Below, piece after piece: positions 29,669-37,507 of a stretch of 64,000 nucleotides of DNA. The first letter of the stretch is position 1. Every line of letters starts with the position of its first letter. Made by a program: the position numbers and the translations under genes. The notes under the pieces are model-generated. The model was not told where the DNA came from, searched no databases, and saw only the letters and a program-made list of their open reading frames with translations. Source of the stretch: Streptomyces sp. NBC_01317 (GTDB lineage: Bacteria; Actinomycetota; Actinomycetes; Streptomycetales; Streptomycetaceae); NCBI RefSeq assembly GCF_035961655.1, contig NZ_CP108393.1, positions 3,703,501 to 3,767,500 on the forward strand. Direction: 5' to 3'.

Positions 29669-31177
29669 TCAGGCGCCGGTCAGGACCTCCGCCGCCGCGA
29701 CCCCCGAGGCCGCCGTCGCGCCGTGGGTGAAGATCTGGACCGCGCCGGGGGCGGTGGAGCCGGGCAGGCCCATCTCCACCACGATCGCGTCGGGGCGGGC
29801 CGCGGTGAGGTCCGCGAGGGCGCGTCCGATCCACTTGTTCCGGGAGGCGTCCCGTACGACCACCACGATCGGACGGCCCGACGCGGGTGCCAGCGCGTGC
29901 TTCTCCAGGACGGTGGAGTCGGCCTCCAACTGCTGGTGGTGCACCCGTACGAAGGTGGTTCCCGGCAGCCGCTCGCGCAGCGGTACGGCGACACCCCACG
30001 GCGTCTCCTTGCCGATGGCCAGGTTGTTGGAGGGCACCAGCTCCACCACGTGGGGAGCGGCGGTCAGCGGGAGAACGCCCTGCGTCGAGCCGCTCGTACG
30101 GATCGCGCGCCGGGCGGCGATGAAGCCGATGTCGCCGCTGACGGGGTTGACCGGGACCCCCTGGCCCAGACGCGTGGACCACTCGGCGAATTCGGCGACC
30201 CGGCGGGACGCCTCCACCAGGCGGTCCTCGGCGAGGTCCCCGGCGGACACCGCGCGGACGAGGGCGTCGGCCAGGAGGCCGACGGTGGACTCCTCGGCGT
30301 TCTCCCCACCGACGCAGATGGCGTCGGCGCCGGCCGCGACGGCCATGACCGTGGCGCCCTCGATCCCGTAACGGTTCGCCACCGCGCCCATCTCGATGGC
30401 GTCGGTGACGATCAGTCCGTCGAAGCCGAGTTCCTTGCGGAGCAGGTCGTTGAGGATGCGGCTGCTGAGGGTGGCCGGCAGGTCGGGGTCGTACGCCGGT
30501 ACGAGGAGGTGGGCGCTCATGACCGCGCGTACCCCCGCCTTCAGGGCGGCCCGGAACGGGGGCAGCGCCTGCGCGGCGATCTCGTCCAGGTCCGCGTCGT
30601 ACGTGGGCAGGCCGTGGTGGGAGTCGACGGCGACGTCCCCGTGGCCCGGGAAGTGCTTGGCGCAGGCGGCGACACCGCCCGACTGGAGTCCCTGGATCCA
30701 CGCGGCGGCGTGCCGGGAGACCAGTCCGGCGTCGACGCCGAAGGACCTGACGCCGATGATCGGGTTGTCGGGGTTGGAGTTGACGTCCACGCTGGGCGCG
30801 TAGTTGAGGCTGACGCCGGCCGCGTGCAGCTGGCGGCCCAGGTCGCGCGCGACGGACTCGGTCAGCTCGGGGTCGTCGACGGCGCCGAGGGCGAAGTTGC
30901 CGGGGCGGGTGGAGCCGGTCGAGGACTCGATGCGGGTGACGTCCCCCGCCTCCTCGTCGATGGCGATGATCAACGAGGGTTTCTCGGAGCGGAGTTGGGC
31001 GGTCAGGTTGGCGACCTGCTCGGGCGACACGATGTTGCGGGCGAAGAGCACGACGGAGGCCAGGCCGTCACGGATGTCGCGCAGGACCCAGTCGGGCGCT
31101 TCGGTACCCACGAACCCCGGCTGGAGGACGGAGAGCGCGAGTCGCCGCAGCTCTTTGCTGTGCTTGCTGGAGGACAT
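29669..31177 (-). CDS. Glycoside hydrolase family 3, beta-N-acetylglucosaminidase (NagZ type)
   Basis: 502 aa, no signal peptide, so cytoplasmic. The NagZ signature KHFPGHGD followed by VDSHHGLP (the His/Asp acid-base dyad) and the nucleophile Asp in VTDAIEMGA are present. It would release GlcNAc from chito-oligosaccharides or muropeptides. A C-terminal GH3_C-like domain extends it beyond the E. coli NagZ length. A DasR-like operator overlaps its start site, fitting GlcNAc-regulated expression. No sugar ABC transporter genes accompany it here, although such genes often do in Streptomyces. Confidence 0.92.
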   Translation of the reverse strand: MSSSKHSKELRRLALSVLQPGFVGTEAPDWVLRDIRDGLASVVLFARNIVSPEQVANLTAQLRSEKPSLIIAIDEEAGDVTRIESSTGSTRPGNFALGAVDDPELTESVARDLGRQLHAAGVSLNYAPSVDVNSNPDNPIIGVRSFGVDAGLVSRHAAAWIQGLQSGGVAACAKHFPGHGDVAVDSHHGLPTYDADLDEIAAQALPPFRAALKAGVRAVMSAHLLVPAYDPDLPATLSSRILNDLLRKELGFDGLIVTDAIEMGAVANRYGIEGATVMAVAAGADAICVGGENAEESTVGLLADALVRAVSAGDLAEDRLVEASRRVAEFAEWSTRLGQGVPVNPVSGDIGFIAARRAIRTSGSTQGVLPLTAAPHVVELVPSNNLAIGKETPWGVAVPLRERLPGTTFVRVHHQQLEADSTVLEKHALAPASGRPIVVVVRDASRNKWIGRALADLTAARPDAIVVEMGLPGSTAPGAVQIFTHGATAASGVAAAEVLTGA

Positions 31178-31450: not shown

Positions 31451-31480
31451 TTGACACGGAGCCGCTGGTCTAGTCCAATT
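31451..31480 (+). promoter_or_regulatory. Second DasR-like operator with a plus-strand -35 box
   Basis: TTGACA at 31451-31456, then GCTGGTCTAGTCCAAT (31464-31479), 11 of 12 matches to the dre core TGGTCTAGACCA. The operator occupies the spacer and -10 area. It points toward the oxygenase operon 200 bp further on. Apart from the two operator regions nothing else was recognised in 31178-31682. Confidence 0.6.
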
Positions 31481-31682: not shown

Positions 31683-32747
31683 ATGTCGGAGCCTGACAAC
31701 TATCTCTATCGAGCGCCTTCGGACGTCCCGTATTTCAGCTCGGACGGCGAAACCTATCTCGCGCAGACGCAGTTGCGGGATCTCCGGAAAACACAGAAGC
31801 TCCGCGTGCTGTCCGAGGAGGACTTCGCCTTCTGGCAGACGTACGGCTACATCGTCGTGAAGGAGGCGATCCCGGCCGTTTCGGCGAAACGCCTCCTCGA
31901 TTTCGCCTGGGAGTTCCAGGGACTTGACCCCGAGCGGCCCGAAACGTGGTACGAGGAAAAGGAGTTCCGCTCCGACCTCGACCGGGAACTGCACATCTAC
32001 GGCTTCGTGGAGGCGTACCACCACCAGCTCATGTGGGACAACCGCCAGACGCAGCGCGTGTACGACGCGTTCGCCGACGTGTGGGACTGCGAAGAGCTGT
32101 GGGTGAGCCTGGACCGGCTCAACCTCAACCCGCCCAACGTCAGGAACCGCGACCGCGCGCACATCGCCCCCACGGAGCGCGGGTTCGACATCGACCTCCA
32201 CTGGGACGTCGACACCACGCTCGGGGTGCTGCCGCAGCGGGTGCAGGGCATCATCGCGCTGAACGACACCAGGCCGGACCACGGCGGCTTCCAGTGCAAC
32301 CCGGAGCTGTTCCGGCAGTTCGACCCGTGGCGGGTGGCCCAGCCCGCGGACCGGGACCCGATCAGGCCCGCCGTCGACCGTACGGAATTCCCGGTGATCC
32401 GGCCCGAGTTGGAGGCCGGCGACCTGCTGATCTGGAACGGTCTGCTGGCACACGGAGTCGCCCCCAACACCTCGGAGAACGGGGTCAGGGCGGTCCAGTA
32501 CCTGACGATGATGCCCGCCCTGGAATCGCATCAGGAACTGCGCCGTTCGCGCGTCGACTCCTGGCGCCATCTCCGTACCCCGGAGTGGAACAAGACGCTG
32601 GTCGGCGACGCCACCCAGCACGAATCCCTCCGGTACGGAGCCGCCGGGCTGACCGACCTGGGTGCCAAACTGCTGGGTCTTGAATCCTGGGGCAAGCAGG
32701 ACCGCGAACTGCCGACCGGGGACCGGGCATGCGCAGAATCTGTCTGA
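31683..32747 (+). CDS. Phytanoyl-CoA dioxygenase family Fe(II)/2-oxoglutarate oxygenase
   Basis: 354 aa. A cupin-fold oxygenase with the facial triad His173-x-Asp175 (DIDLHWDVDT) and His257 (LLAHGVAPN), and the 2-oxoglutarate-binding Arg269 (NGVRAVQYL). It would hydroxylate or otherwise oxidise a small substrate with O2 and 2-oxoglutarate. ATG at 31683 has GGAG 7 bases upstream; the frame is open from 31617. It is the first gene of a five-gene operon and overlaps the next gene by 19 bp. It is more similar in style to natural-product oxygenases than to fatty-acyl enzymes, which is an inference. Confidence 0.88.
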   Translation: MSEPDNYLYRAPSDVPYFSSDGETYLAQTQLRDLRKTQKLRVLSEEDFAFWQTYGYIVVKEAIPAVSAKRLLDFAWEFQGLDPERPETWYEEKEFRSDLDRELHIYGFVEAYHHQLMWDNRQTQRVYDAFADVWDCEELWVSLDRLNLNPPNVRNRDRAHIAPTERGFDIDLHWDVDTTLGVLPQRVQGIIALNDTRPDHGGFQCNPELFRQFDPWRVAQPADRDPIRPAVDRTEFPVIRPELEAGDLLIWNGLLAHGVAPNTSENGVRAVQYLTMMPALESHQELRRSRVDSWRHLRTPEWNKTLVGDATQHESLRYGAAGLTDLGAKLLGLESWGKQDRELPTGDRACAESV

Positions 32748-34048
32748 CCCTTCCGACCAACAGGGCCTGCGCCGAGACGATTTCGGCCATCGCCGAAGAA
32801 GCGGCTTACGCGGCAGGGCAGTTCGACGTCGAGGTCCACCTGCTCATCCTCGACTCGTCCGACGCGGCCACCTTCGCCGAACACGCCCGGGTCGTACGCG
32901 GGGTCTCCGACGTACCGCGGGTGATCACCCATCATCTGGACGAGGCGGAACAGCGGGACTTTCTCCGGCGGGTCATCAACCGGGCGGGCTCCGTCAAGCC
33001 GGAGCTGCTGCTCGACCTCATGCTGCCCGCCCGTCTTTCGTACGGCGCGTGCACCAATCGCGCGTTCCTCATCGCCACCGCTCTCGGCTGCGAATCCGTC
33101 CACCGCCGGGATTCGGACAGCCGATATCAGGCCGTCGACGGGGTGCCGGTCTTTCCCGTCCACCACGAACTCATGTCGCTCGGAAAGCGCGCGGCCGACG
33201 CGGCCGACGGCGTGGACGAGAGCACGCTCGATCCCCGCCACGCGGACAAGCCCGTGACGATGGTGGGCAGTTCGTTCGTCGGCGAGATGTCCGTCGACAT
33301 CGACGAGATGTACCGGCTCGACCGGGACGTCTACTACGACGTGGTCAGCCTGTGGGCGCCCGGCCAGTGGTCGGCGGAGGAGAAGAAGAAGCTCGCCGAC
33401 GAGTCCTTCCGGGGCGCCGGCACCGAGGCCTTCACCGAGGACCACGCGACGCTGACCGTGGTCGACCCCATGCACGTCGACATGTGCAACATCGCTTTCC
33501 ACCAGGTGCACGAATCGGTGCCGCTGCCGCCCGCGACCGACACCATCGGCAGCGACTACTTCCTCCTGCACCTGGTCCAGAATTCCACGCTGCCCGGCGT
33601 CCTGCACAACCGCAACATCGTGAACTTCTACACCGGTGAGCGGCGGACGGACGCCGGATTCCTCGCGTACCAGACGAGGTTCGCGAAGTTCTTCCTGTCG
33701 ATGCTCTACTTCAATTTCATCTACGCCAAAATGGCGGCGGCCGGCGAGACGCTGCTGGACGAACAGCACCGGGTACACGTCCCCACGATCGCCGAATTCG
33801 CCAGGGAGAGCGCCGCGCTCGACCGTACGGAAAACGTGGAGCGGCTGGACACCCTCGACCGGTCCTACCGGAAACTGGGCGGCAGATACGCCGAGTTCGC
33901 CGACGTCCTTCTCGCGGGTCGCGAGCGGCTTCTGGACGAGGCCCGACAGGACATCAATGATTTCGCGCTGCTGATCGAGGCATGGGCCCCGCTGACGCAC
34001 GCGAGCCGAGCCACGAGCCTTTACCGGCTCGAACGGCAGTCTGGCTGA
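32729..34048 (+). CDS. DUF6271-like protein with a GT-A-like motif
   Basis: 439 aa, no signal peptide or membrane segment. I recall this as the uncharacterised DUF6271 family (not searched). It starts with a beta-strand RRICLTLPTNR, then VEVHLLILDSSD, and has RRDSD at 126-130 after GACTNRAFLIATALGCESVH, a layout like nucleotide-sugar or nucleotidyl transferases of the GT-A fold with a DxD metal site. The C-terminal third is helical. It overlaps the oxygenase gene by 19 bp and precedes the decarboxylase, so it probably acts in the same pathway, perhaps activating or conjugating the substrate. Confidence 0.7.
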   Translation: MRRICLTLPTNRACAETISAIAEEAAYAAGQFDVEVHLLILDSSDAATFAEHARVVRGVSDVPRVITHHLDEAEQRDFLRRVINRAGSVKPELLLDLMLPARLSYGACTNRAFLIATALGCESVHRRDSDSRYQAVDGVPVFPVHHELMSLGKRAADAADGVDESTLDPRHADKPVTMVGSSFVGEMSVDIDEMYRLDRDVYYDVVSLWAPGQWSAEEKKKLADESFRGAGTEAFTEDHATLTVVDPMHVDMCNIAFHQVHESVPLPPATDTIGSDYFLLHLVQNSTLPGVLHNRNIVNFYTGERRTDAGFLAYQTRFAKFFLSMLYFNFIYAKMAAAGETLLDEQHRVHVPTIAEFARESAALDRTENVERLDTLDRSYRKLGGRYAEFADVLLAGRERLLDEARQDINDFALLIEAWAPLTHASRATSLYRLERQSG

Positions 34049-34056
34049 ACCTGTCG

Positions 34057-35265
34057 ATGACGCACGAGAACATATCCATGCTCACCGCCCTGGCCGCCGC
34101 CACCGATGACCGGATCATCTTCGATCTCACGGGAATTGAGGCGAGTTACGACGTCGTCACCCGCGAACTCCCGCACGTCGCCGTCCGCTTCGCCATGAAA
34201 GCCTGTCCCGTGGACGAGGTGATCTCCTGCCTCGCGGAAAGAGGAGCGGGAGTCGACGCGGCCAACCCGAACGAGATCGCGCAGGCGATCAACTCGGGTG
34301 TGCCGCTCGAACGCATTCATTACGGCAACACCATCAAGTCCGACCGGAACATCCTCGACGCACACCGTCTCGGCATCAGGGACTTCGCGACCGACAGCCT
34401 GGAAGACGTCACGGCGATCGCGGAGAACGCCCCCGGCGCCCGCGTGTTCTGCCGGCTGGCGACCGACGGGCAGGGCGCGCTCTGGGGCCTCACCAACAAA
34501 TTCGGCTGCTCGGCCGCCGACGCGGTGCTCGTACTGGAAAGGGCCCGGGAGACGGGTCTGACCCCGTCCGGGCTGTCCGTGCACGTCGGTTCGCAGCAGA
34601 TGACCGCCGAAGCCTGGCGCAGCGCCTTCGACAAGCTGGTCGACGTGCTCGAAGTCCTGCACGGGCGGGGCATCTTCCTGGACCACGTGAACCTCGGCGG
34701 AGGTCTGCCGGCGCTCGGCTACCTCAACAAGCGGGGCGAGCGGCTGGACCCGCCGCTGGACAAGATCTTCGCCGTCATCCGGGAGGGCATGCGGCGGTGC
34801 CGCGAAGTGCCGGGGCACGACCTGGGGTTCATCGTGGAGCCGGGGCGGTATCTCGTCGCCGACCACGGGGCGATCCGGGCGCACGTCTCCCGGCTGTCCA
34901 CGCGGCGGACGCCCGGCGGGGAACACGAGCACTGGCTGTATCTGAGCTGCGGGAAGTTCAACGGCCTGTACGAGATGGACGAGTTGCAGTACCGGCTCAC
35001 CTTCCCGACGCACACGGACGCCGTCCACATACCGGCCGTGGTCGCGGGACCCACCTGCGACAGCGACGACGCCTACTCCCGCGAGCACGGGCTGGTGCGC
35101 GTTCCCCGTACGGTCGCGTCCGGCGACCCGGTCTGGGTGCTCTCCAGCGGTGCGTACGCCATCAGTTACATGACGCAGGGGTTCAACGGCTTCAGTCCGC
35201 TGCCCTACACGTGCATACGCGGCGACCGCCACCTGGCGGGGGCGAGCGGGGAGGCGAGGAAGTAG
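34057..35265 (+). CDS. Type III PLP-dependent amino-acid decarboxylase (ODC/LysDC/DapDC fold)
   Basis: 402 aa alanine-racemase-fold decarboxylase. PLP lysine Lys48 in FAMKACP, HVGSQ, phosphate-binding NLGGGLPA, VEPGRYLVA, CDSDDAYS (the catalytic Cys loop shared at the dimer interface) and the C-terminal GAYAISYMTQGFNGF. The substrate (ornithine, lysine, or a modified amino acid) cannot be read from sequence. The ATG at 34057, 8 bases after the previous stop, is preferred; upstream in-frame codons overlap the previous gene. It likely removes CO2 from an amino acid that the oxygenase or GNAT also handles. Confidence 0.88.
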   Translation: MTHENISMLTALAAATDDRIIFDLTGIEASYDVVTRELPHVAVRFAMKACPVDEVISCLAERGAGVDAANPNEIAQAINSGVPLERIHYGNTIKSDRNILDAHRLGIRDFATDSLEDVTAIAENAPGARVFCRLATDGQGALWGLTNKFGCSAADAVLVLERARETGLTPSGLSVHVGSQQMTAEAWRSAFDKLVDVLEVLHGRGIFLDHVNLGGGLPALGYLNKRGERLDPPLDKIFAVIREGMRRCREVPGHDLGFIVEPGRYLVADHGAIRAHVSRLSTRRTPGGEHEHWLYLSCGKFNGLYEMDELQYRLTFPTHTDAVHIPAVVAGPTCDSDDAYSREHGLVRVPRTVASGDPVWVLSSGAYAISYMTQGFNGFSPLPYTCIRGDRHLAGASGEARK

Positions 35266-35871
35266 ATGAACCACGACGTGCGCGTACGCCCGGTCTCCGA
35301 AGGTGACTGGGACGGGATCGTCGCGCTGGAATCCGGTGCGTACGCCGCCCTCGGGCTGTCCGAGGAGCGGAGTGCCCTGGAGTCCAGGGTGCGCGCGTCG
35401 CCGGGCACCTGCTTCGCCCTCGATGCCGAACAGCGGCTCGCGGGCTATGTGTTGGCGCTGCCGTACCCGGAGCACGGGTATCCGGACCTGACGCGCGCGG
35501 AGGAAGCGGCGGCGGTACGCGCACACCACTCGAACCTGCATCTGCACGATCTCGTGATCGAGGAGGGGCTTCGGGGCAGGGGGCTCGCGAAGACCCTCCT
35601 GCACCACCTCCTCGCGACGGCGCGGTCGGAGGGGTACGAGCGGATCTCCCTGATCGCCGTCAACGGCAGCGACACCTTCTGGGCGGCGAACGGATTCACC
35701 GCCCGCCCCGGGGCCGCTCCCACGGAGGGGTACGGACCGGGCGCGGTGTACATGTCCAGGGCTGTACCGGCAGGGGCCTCGCCGGCAGGGGCCTCGCCAG
35801 CTGGGGCCGTACAAGAAGCAGCCGTACCAGCAGCGCCAGCCGTACCAGCAGCACAAGACGAAGTGGGCTGA
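35266..35871 (+). CDS. GNAT family N-acetyltransferase
   Basis: 201 aa, ATG directly after the decarboxylase stop, so translationally coupled. The acetyl-CoA loop is LVIEEGLRGRGLAKTLLHHLL. The C-terminal 40 residues are PAGAS/AVPAAP repeats of low complexity. It probably acetylates the amine made by the decarboxylase, or gives self-protection; neither is shown. Confidence 0.88.
   Translation: MNHDVRVRPVSEGDWDGIVALESGAYAALGLSEERSALESRVRASPGTCFALDAEQRLAGYVLALPYPEHGYPDLTRAEEAAAVRAHHSNLHLHDLVIEEGLRGRGLAKTLLHHLLATARSEGYERISLIAVNGSDTFWAANGFTARPGAAPTEGYGPGAVYMSRAVPAGASPAGASPAGAVQEAAVPAAPAVPAAQDEVG
35766..35812 (+). repeat. 15-bp tandem repeats in the GNAT tail
   Basis: About three copies of a GCCGGCAGGGGCCTC-type unit encoding PAGAS. 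Confidence 0.8.
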
Positions 35872-35878
35872 TCACACC

Positions 35879-37108
35879 ATGTTCCGTGTTCACGACGATC
35901 CCTTCCGCCGCGCACAGTTGGCGATCGCCGCCCTGTTCAGCTCGCTGGGGTTCCAGTACGCCACCTGGGCCGCGCGGCTCCCCGCGATCAAGACCCACCT
36001 CGACCTGACCGCGGCGGAGGTCGGCCTGCTGCTGATGGCCACCGGCATCGGCGCGGCCGCGTCGTTCCCCCTGGTGGCGGTCCTCATGCGGCGGTTGGGC
36101 TCCCGGCGCCTCGCCCTGGTGGCGGCGCTCGGCCTCGCCCTGCTGCTCCTGGTGCTGGCCGAAGCGCCGAACTACCCCGTCGCCCTGCTGATCATGGCGG
36201 TCGACGGCGCGCTCGTGGCGTGTCTCAACGTCGCCATGAACGCGCAGGGGGCGGAGCTGGAGGTGAGGTACGAGCGCAACGCCATGTCCAAGCTGCACGC
36301 GACGTTCAGCGGCGGCTCGCTGGCCGCCGCGCTGCTGGCGTCGGGCATGAACACCGTGACGTCCACCGTGATCGTGCACTTCGGGGTGGCGGCCGTCCTG
36401 CTCCTGCTGCTGGCCGCGTACGCGCGGCCGGGGCTGCTGGCGCAGGAGCGGCCGGCGGAGGAGAAGGCGGACACGGCGGAGACAGCGGACGCACCGGAGA
36501 AGAAGACCCGCGCCAAGTGGGCCCTGCCGGCCGCGATGACGTTGTGGATGGGCGCCGCGATGGCGTTCGGCACGGTCACCGAGGGCGCGATGAACGACTG
36601 GTCGGCCATCTACCTCAAGGACGTCGCCAAGGCGTCGGCGGAACTCGCGCCCCTGGGCATCGCCGTCGTCTCGGGAATGATGGTCCTGGCCCGCCTCTTC
36701 GCCGACGGCTGGCGCAGCCGCTGGGGCGACGCCCGTATCGTCCGCACCGGCAGCGCACTGGCCGGCGCGGGCCTGGCCGTCGCGCTCCTCACCGGTGGTG
36801 TGGTCCCGGCCCTGATCGGCTTCGCCTGCGTCGGCCTGGGCATCGCGGCCGTGACGCCCTGCGTGTACGTGGCGGCGGCGTCACAGGGCTCGGACGCGCT
36901 GACCCTGGTGGCCACGATGGGGACGGTGGGCCTCCTGGCGGGCCCCCCGGTGATCGGCTTCATCGCGAACGGGAGCGGCCTGGTGTGGGGCATGGGCGCG
37001 GTGGCGGCCTCGGCGATCGTCGTATCGCTGTGCAGCACGCGGATCAGCTGGCCCACACCACAATCGGCGGCGGACCCGGACCCGCTGGACGATCCCCTGA
37101 CGGCCTGA
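35879..37108 (+). CDS. MFS transporter
   Basis: 409 aa with twelve hydrophobic segments and a charged central loop (residues about 190-215, EERPAEEKADTAETADAPEKKTR in two parts). Motif A-like LMRRLGSRRLAL between TM2 and TM3. It resembles YbjJ-type MFS exporters. It is last in the oxygenase-decarboxylase operon, 7 bases after the GNAT stop, and is a plausible exporter of the product. Confidence 0.9.
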   Translation: MFRVHDDPFRRAQLAIAALFSSLGFQYATWAARLPAIKTHLDLTAAEVGLLLMATGIGAAASFPLVAVLMRRLGSRRLALVAALGLALLLLVLAEAPNYPVALLIMAVDGALVACLNVAMNAQGAELEVRYERNAMSKLHATFSGGSLAAALLASGMNTVTSTVIVHFGVAAVLLLLLAAYARPGLLAQERPAEEKADTAETADAPEKKTRAKWALPAAMTLWMGAAMAFGTVTEGAMNDWSAIYLKDVAKASAELAPLGIAVVSGMMVLARLFADGWRSRWGDARIVRTGSALAGAGLAVALLTGGVVPALIGFACVGLGIAAVTPCVYVAAASQGSDALTLVATMGTVGLLAGPPVIGFIANGSGLVWGMGAVAASAIVVSLCSTRISWPTPQSAADPDPLDDPLTA

Positions 37109-37125
37109 CACTTCCCGGGCATGCG

Positions 37126-37161
37126 GAAGCCCCAGGACATTGCACGATGTCCTGGGGCTTC
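37126..37161. terminator. Terminator hairpin after the MFS gene
   Basis: Perfect 15-bp stem (GAAGCCCCAGGACAT and its complement) with loop TGCACG, ending in TTC. It lies between the MFS gene and the convergent SARP gene. It is 26/30 identical in its core to the hairpin next to the tRNA-Thr. Confidence 0.85.
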
Positions 37162-37507
37162 GTGGTCACTCCGCCGGTGTCAGGGTCTTATAGCCATGTG
37201 GTCGCATCCGTCGCCGACAGCAGATCCACGAACCGCAGGACAACGTACGGCATGCATACGTAGGCTCCAACGGGACGTACGCGCTTTGCCCACCGCATCG
37301 CAGCAAATGCACGCGTATCGGAATTCTTGCTTCCGTTAAATATCAAGAGCGCCGTTCCTGATTTCTGAGGGTTTTCCGAGCAGGCACGAGGGCGTGGCGA
37401 ATTCGGCAGCCGCAGCCCGCATCACGTGATCGAAAGAGTAGCGCGTGACGAGAGCCGCCATCTACCCGCACACCGGCCCGCCGACCCAGCGGCGGAAACA
37501 GGCGACC
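37162..37507. other. Gene-free gap between convergent genes
   Basis: 346 bp, visibly less GC-rich than the genes (for example the stretch near 37320-37370). No credible coding frame, RNA or repeat was recognised. Confidence 0.6.

Follow-up and report, generated by a model that had tools for sequence, protein, structure and literature searches.

A candidate DasR-controlled biosynthetic operon pairing a 2-oxoglutarate oxygenase with a DUF6271 protein in Streptomyces

A compact operon of five genes in the window, by which we mean the whole 64,000-nucleotide stretch of DNA that was analyzed, may direct the production of a small molecule under the control of the GlcNAc/chitin regulator DasR. The encoded proteins would carry out hydroxylation, glycosylation, decarboxylation, acetylation and export, a reading to which we give an even chance. 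An earlier note on the same DNA assigned no role to the DUF6271 protein and omitted a DasD-like GH3 gene and a DasR operator, which are present in most of the sampled loci. The features of this region are as follows.

29669..31177, minus strand: GH3 beta-N-acetylhexosaminidase, DasD paralogue (PF00933, 247 bits), divergent from the operon and sixth gene of the neighbourhood
31451..31456, plus strand: TTGACA, possible -35 hexamer read from the sequence, 9 bp ahead of the operator
31466..31477, plus strand: TGGTCTAGTCCA, core of a DasR responsive element (dre), exact match, conserved upstream of the oxygenase gene
31683..32747, plus strand: Fe(II)/2-oxoglutarate oxygenase of the PhyH / Gig2-like (YbiU) type (PF05721, 40 bits), predicted hydroxylation step
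32729..34048, plus strand: DUF6271 protein (PF19787, 792 bits), predicted NDP-sugar enzyme of GT-A/GT75-like fold
34057..35265, plus strand: fold-type III PLP decarboxylase (PF02784, 140 bits), related to lysine/ornithine/diaminopimelate decarboxylases
35266..35871, plus strand: GNAT N-acetyltransferase (PF00583, 46.8 bits)
35879..37108, plus strand: MFS transporter, probable exporter (PF07690, 86.6 bits), conserved last gene
37126..37161, plus strand: stem-loop with a 16-bp stem, 3' of the MFS gene

The five plus-strand reading frames contain no inner stop. The oxygenase and DUF6271 frames overlap by 19 bp, and the later gaps measure 8, 0 and 7 bp. These coordinates and the Pfam matches bear out the five-gene operon described in the earlier note, which was also right that the operon holds no NRPS, PKS or RiPP core. 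Its strong terminator stands in part: the stem-loop is strong (-36.6 kcal/mol for 37105-37175, z -4.2, equalled by 1 of 200 shuffles), but it has no T tract, and a consensus terminator scan of the window returned no terminator. The two regulators said to lie downstream with TTA codons do contain 3 and 2 such codons, but they do not travel with the operon. Among the compared loci, high-identity counterparts occur only in L071, a near relative whose first three operon proteins are 94-97% identical to those of the window, and three others give matches of 30-36%. We therefore dropped these regulators as members of the system. None of the five operon genes nor the GH3 gene has a TTA codon. The decarboxylase gene has a second possible start, an upstream ATG at 33982 inside the DUF6271 gene.

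The operon is widespread. DUF6271 occurs in 123 of 392 same-genus genomes and the decarboxylase (E 1e-90) in 89. The two genes lie within 3 kb of each other in 80 genomes; in 4 more both occur at a distance from each other, a count that includes two with the genes split over contigs (G138, G073). DUF6271 stands alone in 39 and the decarboxylase in 5. The earlier expectation that the set travels together is upheld by these numbers, with 84 of the 89 decarboxylase genomes also holding DUF6271 (Fisher p 3e-48, without correction for kinship). In a first set of 48 loci, 40 from genomes of the genus sample and 8 found by name, 34 match all five genes by tblastn, including L061, in which just a fragment of the decarboxylase is present. 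Since the same gene order recurs in other Streptomyces, in Lentzea (L076) and in Kibdelosporangium (L078), we can eliminate chance as the origin of this set. We call the oxygenase-DUF6271-decarboxylase-GNAT-MFS arrangement type A; the 46 type A loci compared below are weighted to high DUF6271 scores and cases of interest and are not a random draw. The GNAT gene follows either the decarboxylase or the DUF6271 gene in the compared loci, and in L049, L061 and L139 an intact decarboxylase is missing and the other type A genes are retained. In a second arrangement, type B (nine loci: L060, L062-L068, L077), the oxygenase and DUF6271 genes are followed by a stand-alone condensation-domain protein and accompanied by a divergent amino acid:[carrier protein] ligase-like gene, each in 9 of 9. 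The members scanned also encode an MFS protein, a small carrier-like protein and a PPTase-like protein; carrier protein and ligase score under the Pfam cut-offs, the ligase reaching 103 bits where NCBIfam requires 357. Twelve of the 39 genomes with DUF6271 and no decarboxylase were inspected, and comprise 8 of type B, 3 without an intact decarboxylase and 1 with a distant DUF6271.

The case for DasR begins with the operator, which occurs once in the window, between the GH3 and oxygenase genes. The stretch 31464-31479 agrees with the dre consensus A(G/C)TGGTCTAGACCA(G/C)T at 13 of 16 positions, and the pattern was then tested at other loci. Within 600 bp upstream of the oxygenase the operator is found exactly in 30 of 45 type A loci and with at most one mismatch in 34, against a mean of 0.05 loci over 20 rounds of local shuffling. 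A pattern-free count returns the operator as the commonest 12-mer (19 of 36 non-redundant type A upstream regions; next unrelated word, 4). All nine type B loci carry TTGTCTAGACCA upstream of the oxygenase. The TTGACA stretch, TGTTGACA, recurs upstream in 9 of the 36 non-redundant loci, and a sigma-70 scan of the window found no promoter.

The 8.07-Mb genome contains the operator twice, at the operon and at G000:C1:2803130, inside a locus that reads dasR, dasABC, dasD, nagB. From synteny, the GntR-type gene next to dasABC-dasD-nagB (G000:C1:2809570-2810403) is presumably DasR. Across 16 type A genomes we counted 55 operator copies, 17 at the operon, 26 within 10 kb of DasD and 12 elsewhere; inclusion of G200 and G190, left out because they have no DasD position, gives 63 sites in 18 genomes with 19 at operons. 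The operator is at the operon in 18 of these 18 genomes, a set picked mostly for having the site. Eight genomes without DUF6271 hold 16 copies, 9 of them near DasD.

A 2015 study gives the dre consensus and reports an EMSA in which DasR bound the scr5239 site, the core of which is TGGTCTAGTCCA (PMC4398421) and thus identical to the 12-mer core in the window. The sites listed in that study include cttggtctagtccata for dasR/dasA and agttgtctagaccagt for ptsH (PMC4398421); the core of the latter is also the type B operator core. Glucosamine-6-phosphate inhibits DNA binding by DasR in vitro (PMC4398421). Judged by these matches, the operon is a candidate DasR target. The same study places a DasR ChIP peak in the SCO6032-SCO6033 intergenic region of S. 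coelicolor, with cttggtctagtccatt at -154 and -278, and names SCO6032 as a beta-N-acetylhexosaminidase (PMC4398421). In L045, L046 and L050 the identical 16-mer lies at -276 to -278 from the oxygenase with the GH3 gene on the opposite side. From the shared 16-mer, the near-identical spacing and the hexosaminidase gene, and not from the sequence of SCO6033, we infer that the ChIP peak may mark the promoter of the same operon. If so, an unexplained peak reported in 2015 would gain meaning at the level of a product.

The GH3 gene divergent from the operon is related to dasD. Its product scores 193.6 bits with NF003740 (beta-N-acetylhexosaminidase), just below the cut-off of 207, its closest PDB sequence is the GH3 beta-N-acetylglucosaminidase 6k5j, and the translation holds KHFPGHG....DSH, which we take to be the GH3 beta-N-acetylhexosaminidase motif. 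In 26 of 48 loci the gene immediately upstream of the oxygenase is this GH3, separated from it by 258-1082 bp and mostly divergent (on the same strand in L031, L047 and L056-L058); none of the 9 type B loci has it there. By synteny, DasD of the window genome is another gene located elsewhere. A tree of 45 rows separates 16 on the DasD side from 29 on the paralogue side with split support of 100/100; 24 of the 29 are labelled linked, a label that includes two cases with the GH3 gene elsewhere and the operon in the genome (L104, L105), and G244 was entered twice. The tree thus classes the cluster GH3 as a paralogue and not an orthologue of DasD. Of the 80 type A genomes, 36 have the paralogue (E 1e-175) next to DUF6271, 4 have it at another place and 40 lack it; beyond these 80, it is found beside DUF6271 in 4 genomes and in 6 that have no DUF6271.

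Such a second copy could signify self-protection by target duplication: the product would inhibit GlcNAc-processing GH3 enzymes, and the cluster GH3 would be an insensitive DasD. The well-separated clade, the presence of both copies in the window genome, and a GH3 match (E 1e-60) in all 47 genomes checked, with the closer copy mostly at the operon, all agree with this idea. It is nevertheless unlikely, given that half of the type A genomes do without the paralogue, that six genomes carry it without DUF6271, and that DasD, as a catabolic enzyme, would be an unusual antibiotic target. No obvious signal peptide was seen in the GH3 translation, which makes it hard for the enzyme to reach a product once exported; the role of a second, protected DasD, or of trimming inside the cell, would suit it better than extracellular activation.

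Other das genes also accompany the operon, in several different arrangements. In L135 dasD and nagB flank it, in L031 the whole dasR-dasABC-dasD block precedes the GH3 gene and the operon, and in L137 dasR lies ahead of it; a dasR paralogue of 64-65% identity (L053, L059) or a DasA-like gene (L139) is found at others. A GH3 or das gene lies within 8 kb in 32 of the 46 type A loci. Counting the operator as well brings the number to 37 and leaves 9 loci with neither feature, including two with less than 400 bp upstream and one with a GH3 fragment at the contig end (L136). The das locus (dasR-dasABC-dasD-nagB) has the operator core and a DasD-like GH3 in common with the operon, which sits inside or beside it in L031, L135 and L137; the operon adds its five genes, none of which serves the uptake or hydrolysis of chitobiose. 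The operator, the GH3 gene and the das linkage would also fit an operon outside specialised metabolism, a side path of chitobiose use, for catabolism or storage, that modifies amino sugars freed from chitin. The oxygenase family even overlaps with Gig2-like PF07350 (under cut-off in the window protein and listed for many relatives), the fungal namesake of which is GlcNAc-induced. We consider this explanation very improbable in view of the patchy spread of DUF6271, the exporter, the amino-acid-type decarboxylase, and the carrier protein and condensation domain in the sister cluster, type B.

The proposal of a glycosylation step rests on the DUF6271 model. Over 310 of 371 residues the predicted structure has a sugar-nucleotide GT-A/GT75 fold, with a GT-A core and a GT75-type C-terminal helical region, and it resembles the GT75 NDP-pyranose mutases (MtdL, Hyg20, plant UAM/RGP) at an identity of 14-16%. 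An acidic DSD occupies the place of the GT75 DXD, and H-x-R-N aligns with the stretch containing His287 and Arg289 (PMC9937993). An equivalent of Arg159, the autoglycosylated residue of MtdL, was not located because the hhalign alignment is too weak in that stretch. Unlike the genes of GT75 mutases, the DUF6271 gene adjoins a hydroxylase gene and not that of a separate glycosyltransferase. DUF6271 gave no match to the RGP family PF03214 (a Pfam scan at E 1 gives only DUF6271 and DUF6688), and a profile search of PDB sequences returned no GT75 chain. The hhalign probability against GT75 is 2%, with a PF03214 profile built from four sequences, too few for strength; searches for PF03214 in 100 and 396 genomes gave 2 matches each. 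We propose that DUF6271 is an enzyme of GT75-like fold that depends on a metal and a nucleotide sugar.

A product without sugar is the alternative here, namely a hydroxylated, decarboxylated and acetylated amino acid or amine, with another role for DUF6271 and with the das genes as incidental neighbours. The oxygenase, decarboxylase, GNAT and MFS families are all as this explanation needs them, nine loci have no das link, and sequence profiles place DUF6271 in no glycosyltransferase family. Nevertheless, the predicted fold makes it improbable, and so do the operator and the das linkage, which greatly exceed the shuffled control and occur in several arrangements. The acetylated amine proposed in the earlier note thus agrees with the protein families, but the product itself is an inference, and three loci have no intact decarboxylase. 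Those same loci count against the preferred reading set out below, as do the nine type A loci without operator or das/GH3 genes, the 40 of 80 genomes without the GH3 paralogue, the six with it and no DUF6271, the missing sequence-level GT75 match and the lack of an obvious GH3 signal peptide.

Putative catalytic residues of the oxygenase and the decarboxylase are conserved. At least 95% of 47 relatives share H173, D175, H257 and R269 with the oxygenase; having an HxD...H triad and a 2OG-binding Arg, both assigned by pattern, it is classed as a PhyH-type 2OG/Fe(II) enzyme. An HxD motif argues against a halogenase, and since it is retained here we ruled that function out. A search of viral contigs gave no match to the oxygenase. 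The AF2 model from an alignment of 37 close relatives is poor (pLDDT 49) and therefore supports no substrate class. The decarboxylase has 2plj and 5gjm, lysine/ornithine decarboxylases, as closest PDB sequences and scores far under the curated cut-offs of named equivalogs. It shares with them the domain, the PLP lysine K48 and the C-terminal pair C334-D335, residues kept in at least 95% of 37 relatives, which assigns it to fold type III. Its relatives hint at a lysine- or ornithine-like substrate, a tentative call because the NDG/DDG stretch that faces the substrate amine in those enzymes reads SCGKFNG in the window protein.

Our preferred reading combines these observations as follows. Chitin or GlcNAc use would raise glucosamine-6-phosphate, DasR would leave 31466-31477, and the operon would be transcribed. 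The oxygenase would act on an amino acid, most probably a basic one resembling lysine or ornithine, and hydroxylate it; DUF6271 would add a sugar to the new hydroxyl, the PLP enzyme would decarboxylate, the GNAT protein would acetylate the amine, and the MFS protein would export the product. The GH3 enzyme, as a second copy of DasD, the hydrolase of chitobiose, could keep the GlcNAc-glycoside metabolism of the producer running despite the product, or trim the product. A bolder version is doubtful: a widespread, DasR-switched pathway to a glycoside that mimics chitobiose, made from a basic amino acid by hydroxylation, glycosylation, decarboxylation and N-acetylation and set free while the bacterium feeds on chitin. 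The DasD duplicate would then protect the maker, and DUF6271 would found a glycosyltransferase family of its own within the GT75 fold. If true, the pairing of DUF6271 with a 2OG hydroxylase would be a bacterial small-molecule parallel to hydroxylysine glycosylation.

GlcNAc-like products include allosamidin, nagstatin and bulgecin; for the latter two we found no literature match to the operon gene set. The open-licence literature yielded no such pathway for DUF6271, for the five proteins together or for SCO6032 to SCO6036, in agreement with the earlier note, which knew of no characterised pathway with this exact set. It also yielded no account of an aaCP ligase in Streptomyces clusters and nothing linking DasR to cryptic decarboxylase/dioxygenase clusters. 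Each protein belongs to a described family; as far as this literature shows, the combination, its DasR control and the DUF6271 fold are not in print. If the preferred reading is right, a cryptic pathway in about one-fifth of the sampled Streptomyces gains chitin or GlcNAc as inducer, a regulator whose ligand is known and a candidate resistance gene, and DUF6271 gains its first function. Operator and das linkage would then also tag related clusters such as type B, which finders based on core enzymes may miss.

The order of steps given above is a guess from the gene order and from types B and C. In type C (seven loci, L126-L132), which has neither oxygenase nor DUF6271, the decarboxylase and GNAT genes are joined by one for a glutamine-synthetase-like protein; this protein is related to gamma-glutamylputrescine synthetase, scoring 269 bits where the cut-off is 650. 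Since types B and C each keep one of them, oxygenase with DUF6271 and decarboxylase with GNAT are two reusable pairs. One type C locus (L127) contains an apparent remnant of an MFS gene, as judged by eye.

Alongside the type A operon (oxygenase, DUF6271, PLP decarboxylase, GNAT and MFS), a second arrangement, type B, was found at loci L060, L062–L068 and L077. In these clusters a stand-alone condensation domain accompanies the oxygenase and the DUF6271 protein, together with a divergent aaCP-ligase-like gene and, in the members scanned, a carrier-like and a PPTase-like protein. A ptsH-type core of the putative DasR operator precedes them. The L077 oxygenase is 83% identical to the S. clavuligerus oxygenase P0172, which may also belong to type B.

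Type A operons themselves vary. Genes for an AurF-like N-oxygenase, a dCTP-deaminase-like protein and a GT4 glycosyltransferase occur at two of them:

L138:11507-14638, inserted within the operon
L048:3400-6536, upstream of the operon

L134 is possibly an A/B hybrid. An aaCP-ligase-like gene (87%) lies at L134:16300, approximately 5 kb upstream of the type A operon and close to the contig end.

Loci L049, L061 and L139 retain the type A oxygenase, DUF6271, GNAT, MFS and GH3 (a DasD paralogue) genes, with the decarboxylase absent or reduced to a fragment. At type C loci (L126–L132), which contain neither oxygenase nor DUF6271, a gamma-glutamylputrescine-synthetase-like gene adjoins the decarboxylase and GNAT genes; type C looks like type A decayed or re-used. 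Five genomes without DUF6271 (G311, G044, G060, G241 and G354; L121–L125) encode the GH3 paralogue, at L124 with dasR and a DasA-like gene 6–7 kb away.

Two distant DUF6271 relatives, of 24–26% identity, occupy other gene settings:

L069:9433-10797, DUF6271 relative
L070:9368-10720, DUF6271 relative

The latter adjoins GT2, aminotransferase and asparagine-synthetase-like genes (neighbours named by eye).
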